NCBI RefSeq assembly: GCF_014138285.1
Contig: NZ_JACGXN010000016.1
Span: forward strand, 54,188 to 118,187
Reading direction: 5' to 3'
Source of the DNA: Phyllobacterium myrsinacearum
Lineage (GTDB): Bacteria; Pseudomonadota; Alphaproteobacteria; Rhizobiales; Rhizobiaceae
Length of the DNA: 64,000 nucleotides
The first letter of the stretch is position 1; each line of letters starts with the position of its first letter. This document shows positions 4,901 through 37,494 of this stretch, one piece after another. The notes beneath the pieces are model-generated. The model was not told the DNA's origin. It saw only the letters and a list, made by a program, of their open reading frames with translations, and did not search any database. A program made the position numbers and the translations under genes.

Positions 4901-6647
4901 CTTGCGCGGACTGCGCGATGAAATGGGTTTGGGCGGTAACCAGCTCTTCTCGGCCGATCTTCAGGACTCGCTTGCGACCCGTCTGGCCTCACGTCGCGGC
5001 AATAGTGTCGCTGGTCTGCGCAATGAGTGGGAAGGTCTGCGCCGTATTGATCCGGGCCTTATTTCCAACGCCTATACAGGCGGCATCAATGCGAAAATGT
5101 CCGGGCCACGCGTTGGCAAAGCTCCGACGGTTAGTCCCGCTGCCGCACCTGCAATCCCAACCTACGCTCCCGACAAGAATGCGGTTGCCCTGCAACAGCA
5201 GATGAATGACCTGGAGGTCACTTACAAGCAGCAGATCTCCGACATCGTTAAGATCGAGCAGGAGAACGAAGGCAACAAGAAGCGCAACGATGCGGTCAAG
5301 CTTACCAAGTCTCTCAATGATGAGATTGAGGAACAGAAGAACGCAATCGATCAGGCCGACGTTGCCAACAAGCGCTACCTTGCAACCCGCCGCGCGCTCG
5401 AAAAGCGTGGCGTGGATCTCAATTCCGCTGAAGCAAAGGCCGCGCTTGCCGCAGCACGCGAGCTCGACCAGCTCACAGAGCGCTCCAAGAAGGTTTCCCA
5501 GGCGAACAACGCTGAAGAGAAGTTTAAGGAACGCCAGCTCGAGCTTAACAAGCAGCTTGAAGAAGCGCAGGCACGCATTGGTGATCCGAACAGTTTGAAG
5601 TCGTCCTCCGGCTATCGAGCTCTACGACAAGAGCTCGAGGCGTATGTTCGCGACGTTGAAGCCGCCTACGGCAAGGAAAGCACCGCTTACTCCAACGCAC
5701 AGGCCTACAAGACCCAGATGCTTCGTCAGTTTTCAACTGTCGAGGGTATGGAAAAGGCTGCGACCTGGCGTAAGGATACGATCGAGCTGAACCGCTCGCT
5801 CGGCACTGAAATGCAGCAGCGCCGCGCAGCCCTCGATCAGCAAATTGCCGAGATCGATGCCGCGGTAGCCCAGTTCCAGGGCTCGGAAGAACAGAAGGTT
5901 GAATTCGTCCGAATCGCCGAGGCCAAGAAGGCTGCTATCCGCGCGCAATACAACCAAGAAATGAATCCGATGCAGAAGCAGATGGCCGAATGGGGCGATA
6001 TGCAGGGCAATCTGATCAAGCAATCTACGCAGTGGATGGACAATATCGCAGGCGGCATCACCGATCTCATCATGGGAACGGGAGATCTGAAGTCCGTCAT
6101 CAGCAGCATCCTGAAAGACATGGTGAACATGGGCGTCAAATACATGATGTCGGGCATGTTCGGTAACAAAGGCCAGTCAGCAGGCGGCGGCGGGAAGAAA
6201 GCCGGCATGGCTGCGGGCGGCGGGGCGAAGAAAGGTGCGCCATTGATGGGTGTGGGTCTCTATCATGCCGGCGGAATGATCGGCCACACTAAGATGCACA
6301 CTGCCGTAAATCCTCGTGCTTTCGTTGGCGCACAGAAGTTCCACGCCGGCGGGATCATTGGCGGCCCGAAGCTTCAGCGCGATGAAGTGCCTATTGTTAC
6401 GCGCAAGGGCGAGGGGGTCTTCACCAAGGAGCAGATGGCAGCGATGGGCGCCGTCGGTGGAGCTCAGATGTATGCACCGCAGTTCAACATGCCGGTTACA
6501 GTCAATGCCAGTGGTGGATCCGCCGATCAGAACCGCGATTTGGCTCAGCAAACTAGTCGCGAACTAAAATCGATGGTGAAGTCGGTCATGGCCGAAGAGT
6601 TTCAAAACCAACGCCGCCCAGGCGGAATGATGAGTAAGACGAAATGA
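1923..6647 (+). CDS. Tape measure protein with embedded muramidase-like domain
   Basis: About 1574 residues, the longest gene here; its length sets tail length. ATG 1923 is chosen over TTG 1911 because GAAGGA precedes it. The N-terminal third holds a tape-measure core (APFSIQTLNNAFVKL, then GVIQMEELRQQLGESMPTA). Hydrophobic segments follow near residues 55-80 and 425-455, then long coiled coils. Around residues 922-1042 is a lysozyme-like insert (GYAEGTDKGRGYNET, then SSALGRYQIVQQTL) resembling GH104-type phage muramidases; its glutamate in YAEGTD is the likely catalytic acid. The C-terminus resembles the lambda gpH end (ITDLIMGTGDLKSVISSILKD). The insert would open peptidoglycan during DNA entry. 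Confidence 0.9.
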   Translation: MTAIRVELELADGNFTTRMLHAGQSVAQFNREIAASSPRLQAVANAGGQVIRSYSLADMKAKGFLSTMRDLSIVLGVVGLGMSKLANIQSSWVGDIVRVNMEFQKLAFQMKSMSTALDPIREAADNVKYLREMAMNAPFSIQTLNNAFVKLKATGMKDVNETLQALVDGVAAFGGTDEALQRITLGISQMAGKGVIQMEELRQQLGESMPTAVQQMAQAMGISMSELIKEIGTGTVAAKPAIAALVAEIERGYGGRALSMMQTFEGQLKKTYTALQTLSLEAGGLQNGSYTEGGFMSELRKQLQDVNRILSSEIGTNLARSLGSGLTTAVQYIRKAIDALIAFREEGFRTAMIVGKIFVASKMISGVSAMIGGIGRLRQALALTGTDFTRSKRSLDVLMNSFSSSVTGMTRARLSFATAGSFLRGIAGAAAALPPVLSLIGIGVVAVAEYFDLFSNKGKDAMNTLKEFGAASKDTLDIASDYIKKQEEDFAKLTQMREASARNSANMALPGLVARYRGISTEQARKELEDEARQEFDVENDYAAKSLEIQENKRLLAKRSKELESRERAEALDEYRNQVNEELQLEQAAYLRRRQQIQDEFDAEEKALGPGKSASAIRERRGKALIEQAVELYNTRERLMKEMLAKEEKALDDSSNVTARKGIEERITYILDQINQVKEARQSASEQEIGALKFEAPLNDEKLFSKGEIALERVQAEVKGLVGELSGANAEVEELKAKLAANQPYGDMGRAEVQKLVDKLVEATAAKELLDKLLKGKRDLADDIDKARLDALEEQAKLEEELSGKTLSTAEKIELKIKNGAYKGFGPAKLTLDQYKLIVSALDLQGNALTQVGDVARNNAFGSATQTAIQTTNDKLREMSGIVTGIGNGLTGLSFNGLNQFAGGGLALPGGNSKSAQEAAAKGFLDLIGYAEGTDKGRGYNETLGFGKFTGGDQNLVGMTLDQIDQLQSAMLKHPDNNFNSSALGRYQIVQQTLRGLRDEMGLGGNQLFSADLQDSLATRLASRRGNSVAGLRNEWEGLRRIDPGLISNAYTGGINAKMSGPRVGKAPTVSPAAAPAIPTYAPDKNAVALQQQMNDLEVTYKQQISDIVKIEQENEGNKKRNDAVKLTKSLNDEIEEQKNAIDQADVANKRYLATRRALEKRGVDLNSAEAKAALAAARELDQLTERSKKVSQANNAEEKFKERQLELNKQLEEAQARIGDPNSLKSSSGYRALRQELEAYVRDVEAAYGKESTAYSNAQAYKTQMLRQFSTVEGMEKAATWRKDTIELNRSLGTEMQQRRAALDQQIAEIDAAVAQFQGSEEQKVEFVRIAEAKKAAIRAQYNQEMNPMQKQMAEWGDMQGNLIKQSTQWMDNIAGGITDLIMGTGDLKSVISSILKDMVNMGVKYMMSGMFGNKGQSAGGGGKKAGMAAGGGAKKGAPLMGVGLYHAGGMIGHTKMHTAVNPRAFVGAQKFHAGGIIGGPKLQRDEVPIVTRKGEGVFTKEQMAAMGAVGGAQMYAPQFNMPVTVNASGGSADQNRDLAQQTSRELKSMVKSVMAEEFQNQRRPGGMMSKTK

Positions 6648-29556: not shown

Positions 29557-30095
29557 TGTCGGGTTCAGTTCTCACATTCAAACGCACCAACCAGGCCAAA
29601 TTCAACTGCCCGATCTTTGGTGTGGAAACGAGGGTCGCCGCCTGCATGCAACTTCGCGATCGGGTCTGGGCTGGCTTCAAGCCTCCGGTTCGCAAGGGCT
29701 GCCAAGCATGTATGTCGGCCGGCAAATGTCCGATGGCAAAGCTGGTAGATAAAATGATTTACGGCAAACACGACAAGAATGCGCCAGAGCCCTACGCCTC
29801 GACCGAGCCGAAGACTGTTCGCCTGCGCGACGATCTTCTTGAGCGCGTCCTCCCAATTATCGTGCGCGATGGAACGATGAACAACTTTGGTGTGCCGGCC
29901 AAAGAACGCGCTCTGATTGAGACGGCAAACGAGCGCATCCGCAAACAGATGCAGCATGCGCCAAGCGCTATCAGCGATACCTCTGTTACCCGTCGCAGAA
30001 CAACCCTGAAACCGTCACCGGCTTCCGAACCAGCCAATGACGATCTTATCGATGCAGCTTCGTCCGGAGACATGGCTGCGGCTCTCAACGCGTGA
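29556..30095 (+). CDS. Cysteine-containing protein of unknown function
   Basis: A 179-residue protein. Cysteines at FNCPIFG, VAACMQL, KGCQACMSAGKCP could form a zinc or iron-sulfur site in the first 65 residues. The remainder is helical, then low-complexity and proline-rich, ending SSGDMAAALNA. A similar ending (RGDLAAAISS) occurs in the small protein at 51745. GGGAGGTT in the preceding gene's last codons is its ribosome site. No known domain is recognised. Confidence 0.55.
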   Translation: MSGSVLTFKRTNQAKFNCPIFGVETRVAACMQLRDRVWAGFKPPVRKGCQACMSAGKCPMAKLVDKMIYGKHDKNAPEPYASTEPKTVRLRDDLLERVLPIIVRDGTMNNFGVPAKERALIETANERIRKQMQHAPSAISDTSVTRRRTTLKPSPASEPANDDLIDAASSGDMAAALNA

Positions 30096-30108
30096 AAGGC
30101 GTCTAAAA

Positions 30109-31602
30109 ATGAATGACGGATTCCAAGCATATACACTGATCAATTTGATTGCCAATACACCAGGGCGGCTCGAGAAAGAGCGTCTGGTTGGCGAGCTCGC
30201 TAAGCTCGAAATTGGACAGTTCGTTCTTAAATGGGCCTATGATCCATTCATCACGTTCGGCGTATCCTGCCCGAACCCTGATGTATTCGGCAAAATGTCG
30301 TTTAAACCAAGTATCGTGGAGCGCATCCTCAATAAGCTCGCCTCGCGTGAATTGACGGGCCATGCTGCGCAGCGCGAGATTGCCGAGATCATGGAGTATC
30401 TCGATGAGGCCGGCGCAAAGATGTTCTACTGGATCTTGTCGAAGGATCTTAAGGCTGGCATTTCCACCACGACGATCAATTCAGTCATCCCCGGCCTGAT
30501 ACCGGTCTTTGCCGTTCAACGTGCGCATCCTTATGAGGAAAAGAAGGTCAAGAAGTGGCCCGTTGTTGGTGAACCAAAGCTCGATGGAATGCGAGTGACG
30601 TTCCGGGCCCGAGAAGGTCATGGTGGTTTCTTTTCACGATCCGGCAAGCGCTTTCCCGCTCTCGACTTTCTGGTCGAGCCTGTCATCCAAACTGCGTTAA
30701 AGGTGCTCGCCACGAGCAACAATGAAGCTCTCCGCTTTACGCTCAGCACGCGGCCTGGAGATCTTGCCAGAAATGCGCGTGAAGATTTGAATTTCATGCT
30801 CGACGGAGAAGTCATGACTGGTCTCTTCAATACTACTGGATCCGTTCGTCGCAAGTCGGAACAGGCCGAGGGAGCTGAAATTCATCTGTTCGATCTACTG
30901 TCCGGCGCAGACTTCGACGCAATCGGCAATTCTGGTCCCGAGTGGAATGTTCGGCGCAAGATGGTTGAGGAGTTTCATCGCACAGCTCGCGAAGCTGGTA
31001 TTGATGCGATCCAAATCCTTCCGCGTTACTTTCTGAATAACGATGCTCAGGTTCAGGAGTTCTACGATAAGTTCTCCAATCGCTCGCTTGCGTCCTATTT
31101 GGCGCGAGGCAACGCAGAACGTGAGGCGGAACTCGTTCCCCTGACGATGGATAATGCGACCGGCCGACCGAAAACCCTTGAAGGGATGATCGTCAAGCAT
31201 ACGGACGCCCAGTATGAGAAGCGCAAGTCTTACACCTGGATGAAACTTAAAGGTGAGGAGACAGAGGATCTTAAAATTATCGGCGCTTATCCGGGCGAGC
31301 CCGATACGAAATACGAGCATTGTCTGGGAGGTCTGTCGGTTAATAGATCCGGGGTTAAAGTGGATGTCGGCGGTGGTTTCACCGACGCAGAGCGCGAAGA
31401 AATTTGGAAGCTTTACATGGAAGATCAAGCGGCTGCGCTCGCAGGCGACATGACAATTGCCATCAGCGGCGGCTGGAAGCTTCTTGGCCGTCTCATTGAG
31501 GTCAAGTTTCATGAGGTCACGCCCGATGGATCCCTTCGTCATCCAGTATTCAAATGCTTCCGTGACGACAAAGACGGCGAAGTCGAAAAGGTGGCGGCTT
31601 GA
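30109..31602 (+). CDS. ATP-dependent DNA ligase
   Basis: 497 residues from ATG 30109 (GAAAGG upstream). An N-terminal helical domain is followed by the nucleotidyltransferase core: EPKLDGMRV (adenylated lysine near 157), a second motif around FSRSGKRFPAL, LDGEVMTG, EGMIVKH and TWMKLKGEE (motif V with lysines). An OB domain ends the protein. It seals nicks left by flap removal and recombination. It is the last gene before the convergent repC block and is followed by a strong terminator at 31737. Confidence 0.92.
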   Translation: MNDGFQAYTLINLIANTPGRLEKERLVGELAKLEIGQFVLKWAYDPFITFGVSCPNPDVFGKMSFKPSIVERILNKLASRELTGHAAQREIAEIMEYLDEAGAKMFYWILSKDLKAGISTTTINSVIPGLIPVFAVQRAHPYEEKKVKKWPVVGEPKLDGMRVTFRAREGHGGFFSRSGKRFPALDFLVEPVIQTALKVLATSNNEALRFTLSTRPGDLARNAREDLNFMLDGEVMTGLFNTTGSVRRKSEQAEGAEIHLFDLLSGADFDAIGNSGPEWNVRRKMVEEFHRTAREAGIDAIQILPRYFLNNDAQVQEFYDKFSNRSLASYLARGNAEREAELVPLTMDNATGRPKTLEGMIVKHTDAQYEKRKSYTWMKLKGEETEDLKIIGAYPGEPDTKYEHCLGGLSVNRSGVKVDVGGGFTDAEREEIWKLYMEDQAAALAGDMTIAISGGWKLLGRLIEVKFHEVTPDGSLRHPVFKCFRDDKDGEVEKVAA

Positions 31603-31686: not shown

Positions 31687-31779
31687 CAGAACTTGAATCC
31701 CTGGTGACTTGGGTAAAGTTACACCTCTCTGTGTCCAAGGGCCGCTTCTCCTCCCCTTACAAGCGGCCCTTTTTTTTTT
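31687..31779 (+). ncRNA. Candidate small RNA, about 93 nt
   Basis: It is bounded by a good promoter and a strong terminator, with no start codon plus ribosome site inside. It lies between the ligase and the convergent repC gene. Nothing in the sequence identifies a target. It might instead be only a promoter remnant next to an operon terminator. Confidence 0.35.
31737..31779 (+). terminator. Strong intrinsic terminator between ligase and repC
   Basis: AAGGGCCGCTT (31737-31747) pairs perfectly with AAGCGGCCCTT (31761-31771), followed by a run of T to 31779. It ends + strand transcription three bases before the end of the convergent repC gene. Confidence 0.9.
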
Positions 31780-31781
31780 CA

Positions 31782-32882
31782 TCAATGAGCTTTCTTGCGG
31801 CGCATGTATCTGATGACTTCGGCCAGATCTATCTGCCCGCTTTCAATCATCCGCACATAATTTCGGAAGTATCCGCCCGGATTCTTGATTTTCATTTCAC
31901 CAGACTGATCCGCGGAATAAATTTCAAGCACGACGAAGAACGCGGCCGACGCTCGCAATGGGCCAATTTTCTCCATAGCTTCGTCCCAAGCGCTCCGGTG
32001 AATCCCAATTGCACCTCGCAAGCCCGCGGCAGCCGATAGAAGTTCTCTATCGTTGCCCACAGATTCAACGTATCCAAAGGCGTCCGGGCATGCAGCGCAC
32101 AAATCAGGCAAGTTGATTTCGCTTTCATTATCTCTTTGCCGTTTGTTACAAGACTGGTCAGGAGAATCTTTGTTGTTCTCAATGAGACGGCTGTTTTTGC
32201 CGCCACAGGCGGCATTATATCTATCTTCAAGGGTAGTTTTCAGACTTTGCCACAGAGAAAGCACAGGCTCTACGGGCTGCGACGACGTTCTACGCGGCGA
32301 AAGCGCTACTAGGCGCTCATACTCGGCTTGCAGGTCGCTCGTGTCGATACTCATCTCCAATGCACTGAGAGCATACAGCGCTTCCTGAGCAGCTCTCCTG
32401 CAGATCGTAATCTGATCAAACAAGGCCATGCGAGCCCGCTGGAACTCGCGGATAGCATCCGTGCGCGCCTGCAGTTCATCTTTCCGCGCCAAGAGAGGGG
32501 AGAGATTGAAGCCATAAGCATCGAGAATCTGACCCTGCTTGGAGCGCACAGCAAATCGCTTTCCGTTGGCACTATCGCGCGCAAGGATCACACCGGCCCG
32601 GATCAACTCCCCAATCGCATATCGGATAGCGCGGTCGGAGAGTCCCGTTCGATCGGATAGGAACTCGTTGGAAGGCCAGACCAGGTAAAGACCGTTGATA
32701 GGCTCGCGAAAGAACCCGACGAGCTGTGATAGAATGGACCTGGCGGATGGGCGCAGTCCCAGGGCAATTGCTGCCAGATGCGCGCTCTCGAATAGATCCT
32801 TCTTGGTGCCGGCATCTTCCGGCACATAGCTGTCCATTGCCGGCGCTATACGGCGCCAGCCCGAATGTCCCTCGGTTCTCAA
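31782..32882 (-). CDS. repC: Plasmid replication initiator RepC (repABC family)
   Basis: 366 residues from a TTG at 32882 with GAGGAG nine bases upstream. Recognised by the run typical of RepC: HSGWRR at the start, VWPSNEFLSDR, AGVILARDSANGKRF, AYGFNLSPLLAR, ITICRR, a low-complexity ENN/KRQRDNESE linker, then LCAACPDAFGYV, SAWDEAMEKIGP and KNPGGYFRNYVR. RepC is the initiator of repABC plasmids of Rhizobiales and Rhodobacterales and normally acts at an origin inside its own gene. It is slightly shorter than usual (about 400-430). repA and repB are not adjacent; a ribbon-helix-helix gene precedes it instead. It lies on the opposite strand to all replication genes. Confidence 0.9.
   Translation of the reverse strand: MRTEGHSGWRRIAPAMDSYVPEDAGTKKDLFESAHLAAIALGLRPSARSILSQLVGFFREPINGLYLVWPSNEFLSDRTGLSDRAIRYAIGELIRAGVILARDSANGKRFAVRSKQGQILDAYGFNLSPLLARKDELQARTDAIREFQRARMALFDQITICRRAAQEALYALSALEMSIDTSDLQAEYERLVALSPRRTSSQPVEPVLSLWQSLKTTLEDRYNAACGGKNSRLIENNKDSPDQSCNKRQRDNESEINLPDLCAACPDAFGYVESVGNDRELLSAAAGLRGAIGIHRSAWDEAMEKIGPLRASAAFFVVLEIYSADQSGEMKIKNPGGYFRNYVRMIESGQIDLAEVIRYMRRKKAH
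32100..32230. other. Possible origin region within repC
   Basis: In repABC plasmids the origin lies in an AT-richer part of repC. Here the codons of the low-complexity linker (TTTCATTATCTCTTTG and neighbours) are locally AT-richer than the rest of the gene. No iterons are visible. Assignment is by analogy only. Confidence 0.3.
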
Positions 32883-32932
32883 AGTCCCGCTCCTCGCTAA
32901 GACAAAGCTTCGCCGATCACCGGAAATCAGTG

Positions 32933-32961
32933 TTGACAGTGATTCGGAAAAGTGGGAGAAC
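32933..32961 (+). promoter_or_regulatory. Promoter for the RepC antisense RNA
   Basis: TTGACA (32933-32938), 17 bases, GAGAAC (32956-32961), reading opposite to repC in the gap before it. The perfect -35 contrasts with the phage-type promoters elsewhere. Confidence 0.6.
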
Positions 32962-32965
32962 CTTA

Positions 32966-33033
32966 TTGTTCGGGTGGTTCGCCACTTTCTATTTCAAAGC
33001 CTCGAAGGTTCCAGCCTTCGGGGCTTTTGCTTT
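32966..33033 (+). ncRNA. Countertranscribed RNA controlling repC
   Basis: About 65 nt, antisense to the repC leader. A hairpin GTGG-TTCG-CCAC (32974-32985) is followed by a strong terminator. AAAGCC-T-CGAAGG (32996-33008) pairs with CCTTCG-G-GGCTTT (33015-33027), giving 13 bp with one U-G pair, and ends TTTTGCTTT. This is the size, place and structure of the repABC ctRNA (incompatibility factor), which pairs with the repC leader and shuts off translation. Its presence means the RepC unit is probably functional rather than a stray gene. Confidence 0.75.
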
Positions 33034-33039
33034 GTCAGG

Positions 33040-33240
33040 TTACATTTTCAATTCCTCATCAGCGACTTTGCGCATCGTCATACGGATTGCATCCGCGCGG
33101 GTGGTTACGCCCAACTTTTCAGCTACCTTCTGAATGGCCTGCTCGTCTTCCGGCGATAACCAGATGGTCGCCTCGCGGAAACCCTCCTGGCGCTTCTGCC
33201 GACGAAAAATAGCCATTCTCTGCGTTTCTGATCCACTCAT
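33040..33240 (-). CDS. Ribbon-helix-helix DNA-binding protein
   Basis: 66 residues from ATG at 33240 (an upstream in-frame GTG at 33261 would add seven residues; neither has a strong ribosome site). A basic arm RRQKRQEGFR leads into the RHH fold: strand ATIWLS, helix PEDEQAIQKVAEKLG, turn TT, helix RADAIRMTMRKV. Such proteins are plasmid copy, partition or antitoxin regulators. It precedes repC in the same direction, the place of repB in repABC operons. An inverted repeat just upstream (33264-33292) is a probable autoregulatory operator. No toxin gene adjoins it. Confidence 0.75.
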   Translation of the reverse strand: MSGSETQRMAIFRRQKRQEGFREATIWLSPEDEQAIQKVAEKLGVTTRADAIRMTMRKVADEELKM

Positions 33241-33263
33241 GTCCGACTCGCTTGCTGTCACGT

Positions 33264-33292
33264 AACAAGTAGCGCCGATTCTGCTACCTGTT
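33264..33292. promoter_or_regulatory. Inverted repeat upstream of the RHH gene
   Basis: AACAAGTAGC (33264-33273) and GCTACCTGTT (33283-33292) match in 9 of 10 bases around a 9-base spacer. A minus-strand TTGCAA -35 candidate adjoins it. Likely operator of the RHH protein, unrelated to the dispersed palindrome. Confidence 0.5.
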
Positions 33293-33394
33293 GCAATAGG
33301 GGTTTATTAACCACGAACAGACTTCCGCGATTCACGAGAAAATGCGGCATAAGATATATTATGGAACGAGCGGATTTCACAGCTTCGATAGGAG

Positions 33395-33763
33395 CTATTC
33401 AGGAAGAGCGTTTATATCAAGCGATCGGCAACTGCTTTCTGAAGTTGATGGGCCAATCGTATTTGGAAAACTAAAAGTCAGGTTCTTGCGATTGAAGACC
33501 GCCGAGTAACCGTCATACCAGGGGCAGGTCAAATAGTCGCCATTTGCCTTGCAAGGAATCTCTCGCCCACCGCCATCGGGAAATATCCAAGTTATTGCGC
33601 CATTATCAAATCTGTAGGTCAACAGGAAGCGTTGGCCCACTTTAAAGGACAGCTCTCTCATCTGGTTGGAAACAACACGGCAAATCACGAGACCTGCTGG
33701 CTCAGCCGCTTGAGCTCCGGATACGGTAAGAGCAAATCCAACACAAAGCAGAGCTCTAAGCAT
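33395..33763 (-). CDS. Exported protein, moron paralogue A
   Basis: 122 residues with a Sec signal peptide (MLRALLCVGFALTVSGAQA, cleavage after AQA) and four or more cysteines in the mature part (ICRVV, EIPCKANG, LTCPW, SSCRSLDI), suitable for periplasmic disulfides. It aligns along its length with the next gene (TW(I)xxxGG..., TC..., VF..K...F..., C+SLDI). It is encoded with repC on the minus strand. Small periplasmic proteins in such blocks often act in superinfection exclusion or lysogenic conversion; that is inference. Confidence 0.7.
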   Translation of the reverse strand: MLRALLCVGFALTVSGAQAAEPAGLVICRVVSNQMRELSFKVGQRFLLTYRFDNGAITWIFPDGGGREIPCKANGDYLTCPWYDGYSAVFNRKNLTFSFPNTIGPSTSESSCRSLDINALPE

Positions 33764-33777
33764 TCATCATTCACCCT

Positions 33778-34134
33778 TCAATTCTTGCTGATATCTAGGG
33801 GTTTGCAACGAAGCCTCGCGAACGCTTCTTTTGCATCCGTCGCCCAGATAAACGTATCCGTTTTGGTATCGAAAACGTTGTTGCGACCGAGCACGGGCGA
33901 AAAACACGTAATGAGATTGTCGGATCTGCTACATTGCTGTGTGATCGCAACGCCAGACTCTGAAATCCAAGTCAGGTATGGAAAGTATTTATCGACACCA
34001 ATGACATACCTAGCGCCCAACTGCTCATTTGAGCCAGTTGGGGCCTTCTCTACCACGCATGATAGCAAGCCGGTTGAGGCTTGAGCCGATAAAGATAGAA
34101 GCACAAACCCCACAACTAAGAGCGATCTCAGCAT
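33778..34134 (-). CDS. Exported protein, moron paralogue B
   Basis: 118 residues from ATG at 34134 (GGGGA upstream; the frame continues further 5' but without a site). The signal peptide MLRSLLVVGFVLLSLSAQA is nearly the same as in paralogue A. The mature part keeps LLSCVVEK, QLGARYVIGVDKYFPYLTWIS, ITQQCSR, LITCFSP and RLRCKPLDISKN. The two genes therefore arose by tandem duplication and have diverged. It is the first gene of the minus-strand block; palindrome copy 12 and a divergent + strand promoter lie beyond its start. Confidence 0.7.
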   Translation of the reverse strand: MLRSLLVVGFVLLSLSAQASTGLLSCVVEKAPTGSNEQLGARYVIGVDKYFPYLTWISESGVAITQQCSRSDNLITCFSPVLGRNNVFDTKTDTFIWATDAKEAFARLRCKPLDISKN

Positions 34135-34243
34135 TTTAATTTTCCCCACTTGAATCCTTATAGTCGTTATTTTGAATCCTTGGAAGTGAATGACGAATCC
34201 TTGCAACCCGTTACAAATTGTCAGAGGAATATAGGCACGCTTA

Positions 34244-34261
34244 TAAATCATTATTGACTTA
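34244..34261. promoter_or_regulatory. Dispersed operator palindrome, copy 12
   Basis: TAAATCATTATTGACTTA in the 265-bp divergent gap between the exported-protein genes and the XRE regulator, so it could control either side. Confidence 0.8.
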
Positions 34262-34327: not shown

Positions 34328-34399
34328 ATTATTGAAAGCGACGTGTTGGTGGTGCTCACGAAGCTTCATAAGAAAGTGCCTAGAAGGGGCAAATATTCA

Positions 34400-34837
34400 A
34401 TGAAAGATGACAAGATCCGTCCTTACTCACACACGCGTGTGGTGAAGTTCCTGCAAAAGCGCATGGATGAAATCAAACACCGCAAGAGTCAGTATGATAT
34501 CGCGATGGAAGCCGGCTATCATAAGCCGAATATCATTTCGATGATGAAGAACGGTGATGCCAAGGTTCCGTTGGAAAAGGTGTTTATCCTGGCAAAGGCG
34601 TTCGAAGTCGATCCCAACATTCTCTTCCGCCTGGCGCTCGAACAGAACTTCGGCCAGCAGGACACTTATGCCCTGACGCAGATGATGAACCGCACGATGA
34701 CGGAAAACGAACTCGCTTGGGTTGAGAAAATCCGTGCATATACGGGCGATGCCGACCCTTCGCTCACTCAGGAGCTCGAAAGTGGTTTGGAGAAGCTGCT
34801 CGATAATGCCGAGCGGAAGACAAAGACGCCAGCCTAA
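34400..34837 (+). CDS. XRE-family transcriptional regulator, repressor candidate
   Basis: 145 residues from ATG 34400 (GAAGGGG upstream; an earlier in-frame start adds 19 residues without support). The helix-turn-helix is QYDIAMEAGYHKPNIISMMKNGDAKVPLEKVFILAKAFEVDP, that is, a full Cro/CI-type five-helix core near residues 27-70. A helical C-terminal part follows (MTENELAWVEKIRAYTG). There is no LexA-like protease domain. It is the first + strand gene after the repC block and has palindrome copies on both sides, so it is the best visible candidate for the protein reading the dispersed palindromes; that is inference. Confidence 0.8.
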   Translation: MKDDKIRPYSHTRVVKFLQKRMDEIKHRKSQYDIAMEAGYHKPNIISMMKNGDAKVPLEKVFILAKAFEVDPNILFRLALEQNFGQQDTYALTQMMNRTMTENELAWVEKIRAYTGDADPSLTQELESGLEKLLDNAERKTKTPA

Positions 34838-35238: not shown

Positions 35239-37494
35239 ATGAAGCGGGAAATTATAGAACTTCGGGAAGTCATCACGAAGCTTGTTCCAATGCTCACGGC
35301 CAAGAAGGTCGTCGTGACACAACGCGGCTCAAGGGCCTACGTGTCAGTCAATCCTCGCACACGCCAACCCGAGCGCGTCAACATTCCGAATGTCTCCGAC
35401 ACGGCCGATGCAAGTTTCATCCGCGCGATTCAAGGATTCATTGATCATGAGGTCGCGCATGTTCTTCTGACCAACTGGAAGGATTACCTTGTCAAAGGCG
35501 ATGCACATGATGTGAAAAACAAGCGACTGCAGGATCTCGTCAATATCGTGGAAGACACGATGATTGAGCGGGAGATCGTCAAGATATTCCCAGGCTCGCT
35601 CAAAAATATCGCAGACCTGCGCAAGCACTTTGTTGATAAGATCACCAAGCCGGCCATGAAACTGGTCAAAGGTGACGACAAGCAGGAGTTTCGTATTCTG
35701 CTTGTGCCGCTCATGCGCGCTCTCGCCGGTCATGTCGAGTTCCAAGCATATATGAACGAGGAAAAGCTCTGGGATCAGCCTATCGTAAAAGCGTTCGTGG
35801 ATGCCCTCCCAGAGACGCTGAAAAAGGCACTTCCTAAATTCAACGCGACAAAACAGTGTCGTGAAGCTGCCGAGCTGTTGGAAAAGATTCTCTATCCAGC
35901 GCCACCTCCGCCGCCTCCCGCGCCGAAAGCAGACCCTGAGCCTAAGAAGGAAGAAAGTGAAGAAGGCGGCGATGGTCCTGGCGAAGGTAAGAAACCGCAT
36001 GGCGAAGACTCGGAAGAGGCGAGCGGCGGGGAGTCTGGCGAAGCGAAAGATGCTGCGGATGGCGGAGCCAAGGCTGCTGGTAAGCCCAAAGGAAAAACAC
36101 CCGAGAAAGATATCGAGGTAGATGCTTTCGACGACGAGGCGTCGAGCGATGACGAACCTTCTGAACCAACGGACGAAGACGAAGATGACGATTTCGGCGA
36201 CCCACTCGCCGGAATGGATCATGGGATGGACGATGATGAGGGCTATGATGCACCGCCATCAGATCCCGATGGCGAAGATGACGGCGACGTGGATGATGAA
36301 TTAGATGACGGCGATAGCGGCTCTGGCTCCGGTGACACAGAAGAAGATGCAGATGGCGCAGAGGACGAGGGCGAAAGCAGCAGCGGCCGCAGTCATTCTG
36401 ACGAAAAACGTCAAACATCCATTGATGAAGAAGACCCGGAGGGAGACTCCGAAAATGAAGGCGGAGTTGGAAATGGTGCCGCCGGCACCAGTGTCTTTGA
36501 CCACGAGTTCAACGACGAGGACTTCTCTGATCTGGATCTATCCTCCAAAATGGCCGATGAGATCACCAAGGGCGCTGTCCGCGACTTACACAGCGCGCCT
36601 TACACCGTCTTTACCCGCGAATTTGATCGGATCGAGCCTCTTGATCTGAAAGACGCCAATATTCCGGATTCATGGGTTCCAAAGATGGAAAGTGAAGTGC
36701 GCTCAATGGTTGGTCGCATGCAGAAGGATATCGAGCGCATGATGGCCTCGCAGAGCCACGTCATGCGTATTCCAGGTCATCGCAGCGGTCGCTTGCACGC
36801 ACCTGGTCTCCATCGCCTTACGACAGGCGACGACCGCGTGTTCTATCGCAAGCTCGAGCATCATTCAAAAGACACGGCGGTCACTCTTCTGATCGATATT
36901 TCCGGATCGATGGTAAGCAACAACAAGATCGCTACGGCAATGGTAGCGGCCTATGCGCTCTCGACAACGTTGGAGCGAGTGAGCATCGCCCATGAGATGC
37001 TGGGTTTTACCACTGCAGGTTATGGCGCTCTTCCGCGCACGCTCCAGGAGGCGATCGCGGATGAAGCACGCTCCTCCGGTATTCGCTGGGCGCGCACGTG
37101 TCCAATCATCATGCCCATCTACAAAGGTTTCGATGAGCGCGTGACGTCAGAGGTGAAAAAGCGCGTGGCTTACCAAGCGTATGCGCGGCCAGGCATGTTT
37201 AATAACGTCGATGGCGAGTGTGTCGAATACGCAGCGCTTCGCCTGATCAAGCGCCAGGAGAAACGCAAAGTCATGCTCGTTCTTTCAGACGGACAACCGG
37301 CCGGCGCAAATCACAGCGACGAACGGCATTTGATGGATACCGTCAAGAAGGTCGAGAAGATGGGTATCGACCTCGTTGGCATCGGCATCATGGATGCGTC
37401 CGTGAGCAAATACTATCCCAACAACGTGGTGCTGCGCGATGTGGCAGCCCTCCCTGGCGAAGTGATGAAGCGGTTGAAAGCGATCCTCTCTTAA
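35239..37494 (+). CDS. CobT-like von Willebrand factor A protein
   Basis: 751 residues. The N-terminal region has a helical part with FIDHEVAHVLLTNW, which resembles a metal-binding HExxH-like helix. A very acidic, low-complexity linker occupies about residues 215-420 (runs of D, E, S, G). The C-terminal VWA domain carries the MIDAS motif DISGSMVSNN (near 552) and VMLVLSDGQPAG. CobT is the VWA partner of CobS in aerobic cobaltochelatase. In phages the pair occurs without the catalytic CobN, as here, so cobalt insertion is unlikely on its own. It probably forms a MoxR/VWA-type remodelling machine with the CobS-like protein 125 bases downstream. Confidence 0.85.
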   Translation: MKREIIELREVITKLVPMLTAKKVVVTQRGSRAYVSVNPRTRQPERVNIPNVSDTADASFIRAIQGFIDHEVAHVLLTNWKDYLVKGDAHDVKNKRLQDLVNIVEDTMIEREIVKIFPGSLKNIADLRKHFVDKITKPAMKLVKGDDKQEFRILLVPLMRALAGHVEFQAYMNEEKLWDQPIVKAFVDALPETLKKALPKFNATKQCREAAELLEKILYPAPPPPPPAPKADPEPKKEESEEGGDGPGEGKKPHGEDSEEASGGESGEAKDAADGGAKAAGKPKGKTPEKDIEVDAFDDEASSDDEPSEPTDEDEDDDFGDPLAGMDHGMDDDEGYDAPPSDPDGEDDGDVDDELDDGDSGSGSGDTEEDADGAEDEGESSSGRSHSDEKRQTSIDEEDPEGDSENEGGVGNGAAGTSVFDHEFNDEDFSDLDLSSKMADEITKGAVRDLHSAPYTVFTREFDRIEPLDLKDANIPDSWVPKMESEVRSMVGRMQKDIERMMASQSHVMRIPGHRSGRLHAPGLHRLTTGDDRVFYRKLEHHSKDTAVTLLIDISGSMVSNNKIATAMVAAYALSTTLERVSIAHEMLGFTTAGYGALPRTLQEAIADEARSSGIRWARTCPIIMPIYKGFDERVTSEVKKRVAYQAYARPGMFNNVDGECVEYAALRLIKRQEKRKVMLVLSDGQPAGANHSDERHLMDTVKKVEKMGIDLVGIGIMDASVSKYYPNNVVLRDVAALPGEVMKRLKAILS

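Follow-up and report, generated by a model that had tools for sequence, protein, structure and literature searches.

A minus-strand segment (positions 31782-33292) of a 64,000-nucleotide stretch of Phyllobacterium myrsinacearum DNA (the window; contig NZ_JACGXN010000016.1 of assembly GCF_014138285.1, hereafter C16) encodes the plasmid replication initiator RepC and, upstream of it, a ribbon-helix-helix (RHH) protein. We consider it highly probable that this segment is a stand-alone RepC replicon, in which the RHH gene and a predicted antisense RNA accompany a repC that likely contains the origin, and by which a 118-kb phage likely maintains itself in plasmid form, as a circle, in a Phyllobacterium-like host. 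Comparison with relatives offers a test of why a phage carries a plasmid gene: the position of RepC is taken in some of them by unrelated plasmid initiators and in one by an integrase, and since these substitute for it RepC most likely serves prophage maintenance rather than lytic growth.

31782..32882, minus strand: RepC, plasmid replication initiator, 366 amino acids, TTG start (Pfam, PHROG and NCBIfam matches)
32115..32246, minus strand: likely origin of replication (oriV) inside repC, codons 213-256, repC bp 637-768 (silent-site conservation, A+T content)
32933..32961, plus strand: predicted antisense-RNA promoter, TTGACA, 17 nucleotides, GAGAAC (conserved in RHH-type leaders)
32967..33034, plus strand: predicted antisense RNA, or counter-transcribed RNA (ctRNA), ends estimated (fold z -4.38; stem covariation)
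33040..33240, minus strand: RHH protein, 66 amino acids, ATG start, GTG at 33261 as alternative (RHH hidden Markov model, HMM; 19-homologue profile)
33264..33292, no strand assigned: inverted repeat AACAAGTAGC-N9-GCTACCTGTT, possible RHH operator (weak, p about 0.05 from 40 shuffles)

RepC, the RHH gene and the predicted antisense RNA

Three libraries agree that the 31782-32882 product is a true RepC, as a first-pass annotation of this DNA had proposed. Pfam RP-C (4.3e-38) and RP-C_C (1.9e-17) both score over their cut-offs, PHROG returns phrog_22671 (E 5.1e-62), and the NCBIfam equivalog NF040974 gives 204 bits against a cut-off of 150. Among initiators only RP-C matched in Pfam, with other Rep families, and so a homologue of pMV158 RepB, not found there; the PRK13824 domain, tied to the repC family of pRmeGR4a type in the available text of PMC10194956, reached 185.5 bits against an NCBI cut-off of 390. 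By tblastn a similar RepC occurs in 14 phage records, ten of them Rhizobium phages of 115-122 kb (RHEph10 twice) with 45-46% identity and four short fecal phage fragments with 27-38%. The protein is 49% identical to a Shinella plasmid RepC and 88% identical to that of an IMG/VR contig (L115).

To place this gene we surveyed 130 repC loci, the genome scan contributing the best 80 of 531 confirmed matches. Upstream of repC, 62 loci matched an RHH HMM, 58 encoded RepB, 10 had neither and none had both. The HMM was seeded with 10 proteins from the same loci; the 130 include near-copies and the same contig twice (our own/L114, RHEph10/L118, L035/L147, L059/L141), and four of the 10 loci with neither (L052, L054, L133, L047) have masked bases or hardly any upstream sequence, if any. 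Two or more phage neighbour genes were present at 45/62 RHH loci (17 lacked them), 3/10 loci with neither and 0/58 RepB loci. Across this survey RHH and RepB exclude each other upstream of repC, a relation that is new here.

In a quick, midpoint-rooted tree of 64 rows our RepC falls in a clade (SH-aLRT 98) whose rows are 22 from phages and one from a plasmid. This clade lies within a mainly RHH-type set of 42 rows (SH-aLRT 100), which also encloses five Microvirga repABC operons. The tree leaves out loci with neither upstream gene, broken or short frames, rows at least 88% alike, and the repC of pRlX6, annotated in two frames. The label 'repABC-type' given at first does not hold: repA and repB are absent beside repC, as that annotation had itself remarked, and the usual upstream gene of the clade is RHH. 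These data point to a RepC replicon linked to RHH that differs from the repABC and pRmeGR4a types and is common to phages and to Microvirga, Methylobacterium and Rhizobium plasmids or contigs.

The lone plasmid row, nested among the phages, is Rhizobium leguminosarum pRlX2 (258,916 bp; L025:8634-10149), a plasmid typed as conjugative whose phage-type RHH-repC has no phage neighbours. Copies of this type are 97-100% identical in four records, pRlX2 included, and about 91% in five more, all of them R. leguminosarum or R. beringeri plasmids.

The RHH protein alone has no RHH match in Pfam. A profile built from 19 homologues found NikR (4.5e-5) and CopG (0.0089) among PDB sequences, and the pLM21S1 homologue matches Pfam RHH_1; the inverted repeat first described with the gene is present, though weak. 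Judged from sequence alone, an RHH-fold protein stands directly upstream of the initiator, as in CopG-type dual control, and it is likely a CopG-like repressor. The idea that it takes RepB's place is right as to position; as to role, a repressor appears more likely than a partition protein, given that the contig carries, about 52 kb away, a ParA that has an RHH-like partner of its own.

The 157 bases between the RHH gene and repC hold a plus-strand hairpin with a T-rich tail, the predicted terminator of the antisense RNA, whose 14-bp stem (32996-33027) folds with a z of -4.38 against shuffles. Leaders were made distinct before promoters were counted (53 RHH-type, 56 RepB-type). An antisense-strand TTGAC is present in 53/53 RHH-type leaders, against 18% of shuffles, and in 56/56 RepB-type leaders, against 26%. 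With a 17-nucleotide spacer and a -10-like hexamer, the pattern occurs in 36/53 RHH-type leaders, 0/53 sense strands, 0.5% of shuffles and 5/56 RepB-type leaders; with a spacer of 16-18, a range picked after that result had been seen, it occurs in 49/53, 0/53 and 0.9%, and in only 6/56 RepB-type leaders, whose -10 differs. The terminator stem shows two-sided changes at 10/12 pairs in 29 sequences, with 88.5% of cells paired, and a covariation of 0.543 versus 0.297 (standard deviation 0.023) in shuffles and at most 0.285 when slid. The count of two-sided pairs, 10 against a shuffle mean of 7.7 and reached by 6/500 shuffles, is less clear than the other measures. The conservation of the antisense promoter across relatives and the covariation of its predicted terminator stem are new here, and bear out the leader-directed antisense RNA of the first-pass annotation. 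Its predicted layout equals that of known ctRNAs, as far as the available text of PMC10194956 describes them. In five RepC phages without an RHH match, a TTGAC followed by a hairpin-like stretch was seen by eye near repC. An Rfam search of the window found nothing.

Codons 213-256 of repC appear to be a DNA-level element and likely the origin, on evidence rather than proof. Among 31 non-redundant RHH-type repC genes, identical amino acids in this stretch are encoded by identical codons far beyond the expectation from codon use, with a peak excess of 0.38 that none of 2000 column permutations equalled (maximum elsewhere 0.12), and their A+T content is 58% versus 46% for the whole of repC. In 22 RepB-type RepCs a silent-site peak lies at the same place, with a second, smaller peak at our codons 324-346. 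The p42d origin is reported, in the part of PMC3155836 available, to be located within or close to a part of repC rich in A+T (450-850 bp), a range that includes repC 637-768.

A probable phage-plasmid contig of a known lineage

C16 is a 118,187-bp contig, with the window as its final 64 kb, in a bacterial assembly of 5.97 Mb and 40 contigs. The host is called Phyllobacterium-like because a repABC operon on contig C6 of the same assembly is 85% identical to one from Phyllobacterium sp. T1293. Two further contigs of this genome (C18 and C28) each lack a RepC match and carry RepA-like genes, two in all; they are perhaps plasmid contigs cut at their ends.

The genome had looked lytic at first, an effect of the window's edge. 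Ahead of the window start C16 carries a ParA (33439-34074, Pfam match; C16 coordinates) with a small RHH-like partner (33165-33416; RHH_10, below cut-off), a module spanning 33165-34074 that lies outside the window, about 52 kb from the repC cassette; this ParA is the only ParA-type match on C16. Also before the window are two ParB_N proteins, together with a terminase (Pfam over cut-off) and a protein 63% identical to an annotated Shinella major capsid protein (Pfam capsid below cut-off). Through terminase, capsid homologue, ParA and RepC, C16 thus unites phage structure and packaging with plasmid replication and partition in a single element, as phage-plasmids do. Neither a tyrosine integrase (PF00589) nor a resolvase (PF00239) was matched anywhere on C16. 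The contig is apparently a cut circle, because a single ATP-binding gene of a Shinella relative matches both of its ends; as assembled, the two parts cannot be read as a single open frame. C16 thus appears to have the integrase-free, extrachromosomal circular form of a phage-plasmid, the circle being inferred from sequence and not from reads. A terminase search (1e-40) over 394 genomes of the family found it in this genome alone; its prevalence is therefore low or the protein diverges.

Circular plasmids of similar size carry a like RepC: Shinella unnamed3 (117,457 bp), pLM21S1 (117,539 bp), pRlX6 (119,417 bp) and Pararhizobium p5 (115,652 bp). The order ligase, RepC, RHH, helix-turn-helix (HTH) gene, CobT, CobS is common to the relatives inspected, isolated phages as well as plasmids, with CobT in pieces in pRlX6. 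On that plasmid (L029) the annotation splits repC into two overlapping genes and breaks the CobT region into several pieces; pRlX6 is perhaps a decaying phage-plasmid. The available texts of PMC4447125 and PMC5537653 treat pLM21S1 and RHEph10 as archetypes of a group of plasmid-like prophages, and B1VFA and V1VFA-S are reported to have parA, parB and repC (PMC12509600). By gene content and order, then, our element is a new member of this known phage-plasmid lineage (pLM21S1, RHEph10, B1VFA), because phages with a like RepC and circular plasmids of the same size share its gene order and have already been called plasmid-like prophages. Plasmid-like maintenance, the purpose suggested at first for RepC and already proposed for the lineage in these three accounts, is well supported by the circular relatives of 115-119 kb, ParA on C16, the lack of PF00589 and PF00239 matches there, and the exchanges described below.

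Exchanges between ligase and CobT

The cassette lies on the minus strand with plus-strand phage replication genes on both sides, the arrangement first noted for it, in a slot bounded by ligase and CobT:

30037..31602, plus strand: ATP-dependent DNA ligase, left edge of the slot (phrog_114 4.4e-100)
31738..31779, plus strand: hairpin followed by T10 in the ligase-repC gap, which likely terminates transcription of the ligase operon (visible in the letters; unlisted by the terminator scan)
34343..34837, plus strand: HTH regulator divergent from RHH-repC (HTH_3 21.8 bits, cut-off 23; phrog_8 1.7e-6; homologue in 41/46 CobT loci)
35239..37494, plus strand: CobT-like VWA protein, right edge of the slot (CobT_C 4.7e-33; phrog_1576 1.4e-185)

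Relatives were searched by CobT in viral contigs, to avoid finding RepC carriers alone, with a CobT query taken from RepC carriers. Of the 46 CobT loci found, near-copies included (L161/L162, L184/L190, L174/L175), four do not cover the slot, leaving 42. RepC occupies it in 34 of these, with an RHH match in 29 of the 34. The remaining eight give no RepC match by HMM. L169 and L177 have an RPA initiator (3e-84 and 4.2e-87), and L169 is placed among RepC carriers in the CobT tree (15-row set, SH-aLRT 99). L156 and L186 have a RepA_C initiator (1.9e-23 and 1.4e-22) with a tyrosine recombinase. The slot of L178 (1920-4097) holds an integrase (2e-17) with Arm-DNA-bind_3 and an HTH_17 protein; a stretch about 80 bases from the integrase gene matches 137/151 genomes of the family, and each of four such loci that were examined is a tRNA-Phe gene with the match at its 3' end, making the stretch a likely attachment site. 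L171 has an HTH_36 protein, perhaps a divergent RepC because its RP-C score (23.1 bits) is just short of the cut-off of 24.4. The L187 slot has no family match, and that of L195 a guanylate kinase. Further afield, Pseudomonas phage nickie has ligase, helicase, primase and polymerase with one small gene in the slot, and an Acinetobacter plasmid has there a guanylate kinase, a ParA-type ATPase, a tyrosine recombinase and an HTH gene, among others.

Because this place is filled in different relatives by plasmid initiators of unrelated kinds and, in one, by an integrase, the slot is best read as a likely prophage-maintenance, or lysogeny, module. A 2026 study describes phage-plasmids, in its accessible text, as typically without integrases and without active regulation of integration and excision (PMC12977533); the integrase relative, if real, would be a case of a switch between plasmid and chromosomal lysogeny.

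Beside the L156 recombinase, a PIN-domain protein and an HTH_17 partner (5527-6570) form a toxin-antitoxin-like pair. Between our RHH and HTH genes, two small open reading frames (33395-33763 and 33778-34251, both minus strand) are alike, have signal-peptide-like starts and match nothing in Pfam or PHROG. X66 and L128 have another secreted-looking frame in the RHH-HTH stretch, a possible cargo site.

Mechanism, alternatives and known systems

In the model we favor, RHH and repC would be transcribed leftward from a promoter upstream of the RHH gene, which the RHH protein likely represses. Transcribed in the gap from the opposite strand, the antisense RNA would pair with the repC leader and shut off RepC, and RHH and antisense RNA together would form two layers holding copy number low. 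RepC would act on the A+T-rich origin inside its own gene, the distant ParA and RHH-like pair would segregate the copies, and for lytic growth the phage would rely on DnaB, primase and DNA polymerase that it encodes itself.

That RepC instead starts lytic replication, opening an origin for phage DnaB, primase and polymerase with plasmid maintenance secondary, seems improbable to us. The position of repC amid replication genes and its presence in 34/42 covered relatives speak for such a role; it is made unlikely by the 8/42 relatives without RepC by HMM, seven of which have ligase, DnaB and primase matches (the contig of the eighth starts at the ligase), with the limit that one of the eight is L171, whose protein scores just under the RP-C cut-off. 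Phage nickie likewise has replication genes with a single small gene in the slot, and repC lies on the strand opposite to the replication operon, behind the hairpin with T10.

More doubtful still is the suggestion, also made at first, that the cassette attacks resident repABC plasmids, RepC or its antisense RNA displacing them through incompatibility. In p42d RepC the C-terminal 39 residues have a role in incompatibility, according to the accessible part of PMC3155836, and the antisense TTGAC site is shared with all 56 RepB-type leaders. The phage nevertheless appears to coexist with a repABC plasmid, the C6 operon being in the same assembly, and sharing with the antisense RNA is slight: the longest identical run is at most 6 bases for the C6 leader and at most 10 for any of the 56 RepB-type leaders. 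With no antisense sequence shared with the resident leader, a weapon of this kind is unsupported. Least probable is a functionless repC captured from a plasmid: phage-type RHH-repC on R. leguminosarum plasmids without phage neighbours does mean that the cassette moves, but here the frame is open with both RepC domains, the protein is 88% identical to that of the independent contig L115, and antisense promoter, terminator and likely origin are conserved.

Several observations weigh against the maintenance replicon that we prefer. An RHH match is missing in 5/34 RepC-bearing CobT relatives and in 3/48 phage-context loci of the RepC searches, and inverted repeats upstream of RHH genes reach p up to 0.05 in 12/54 regions, a weak signal. 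A generic promoter scan of the locus missed the antisense promoter; a simple terminator scan gave no separation (antisense 38/53 versus 65% of shuffles, sense 16/53), an uninformative count that was replaced by the covariation measure, for which the stem was derived from the same alignment used for counting. A+T-rich stretches are found in other repC genes at places that are not conserved, by the available account (PMC3155836), though the place of the silent-site peak is. The C16 ends have no exact overlap; no start-to-stop frame of at least 60 amino acids crosses their junction, the right-end frame stopping 42 bases before the end. Slot exchanges are few and mostly on metagenome contigs, the integrase contig being 15.9 kb, and the tRNA-Phe-like stretch of L178 has an Rfam tRNA match below cut-off and no ARAGORN call. 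pLM21S1 was not induced by mitomycin C, as reported in the accessible text of PMC4447125.

Going beyond the single element, we lean modestly towards a broader proposal: that a fixed ligase-CobT lysogeny slot takes whole maintenance programmes (RHH-antisense-RepC with a built-in origin; RPA; RepA_C with a recombinase; integrase with a tRNA-Phe site), that one local exchange would convert between plasmid and chromosomal lysogeny, and that RHH-antisense-RepC would be a third kind of RepC replicon with control like that of CopG and RNAII in pMV158. Plasmids and phage-plasmids are known in general to pass replication and partition genes to one another, from what is accessible of PMC10879196.

The closest known systems are pLM21S1, RHEph10, B1VFA and V1VFA-S, which share RepC, an upstream RHH gene, HTH-CobT-CobS-polymerase on one side, ligase-primase-DnaB on the other and a size of 115-122 kb, and differ in host genus and in RepC identity (45-46%). 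pLM21S1 has a ParA, as does C16, and one is reported for B1VFA and V1VFA-S (PMC12509600). The text of PMC12509600 and the accessible parts of PMC4447125 and PMC5537653, the accounts of this lineage, describe neither the RHH gene, the antisense RNA and the origin nor slot exchange; among the matches listed in the open-access literature, a scope outside which most subscription journals fall, nothing concerned an RHH gene beside repC or the ligase-CobT slot. SSU5-related phage-plasmids (PMC12977533) have a CobT homologue and the order ligase-CobT-CobS-polymerase, with a slot that holds only small genes and a tRNA. Mycobacteriophages of cluster A, as described in what is available of PMC7157519, likewise swap an integration cassette for a partition and replication cassette at a colinear position, in another phage lineage and host phylum and with parABS plus repA or RNA origins rather than RepC, RPA, RepA_C and integrase.

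Among plasmids, the repABC type (p42d; PMC3155836, in part) shares RepC, an antisense RNA from the repC leader, present here as a conserved prediction, and a likely origin at the matching place in repC; our segment differs in having no adjacent repA or repB, RHH in RepB's place and partition genes about 52 kb off. The repC-family replicon of pRmeGR4a, from the accessible text of PMC10194956, also has repC outside a repAB operon with its own antisense RNA, here predicted, and an upstream TTGAC antisense site; its RepC is 25% identical to ours, it has no RHH match upstream, and that plasmid also carries repABC. The CopG-RNAII-RepB system of pMV158, in the available text of PMC4485353, has the same succession of a small CopG-type repressor gene, an antisense RNA in the gap and a downstream initiator gene, with a rolling-circle initiator, while repression by our RHH protein is only inferred. 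Set against these systems, the phage-plasmid nature of the lineage was already known, and what is new is the RHH-antisense-RepC architecture, with its likely internal origin, and the exchange of the slot.

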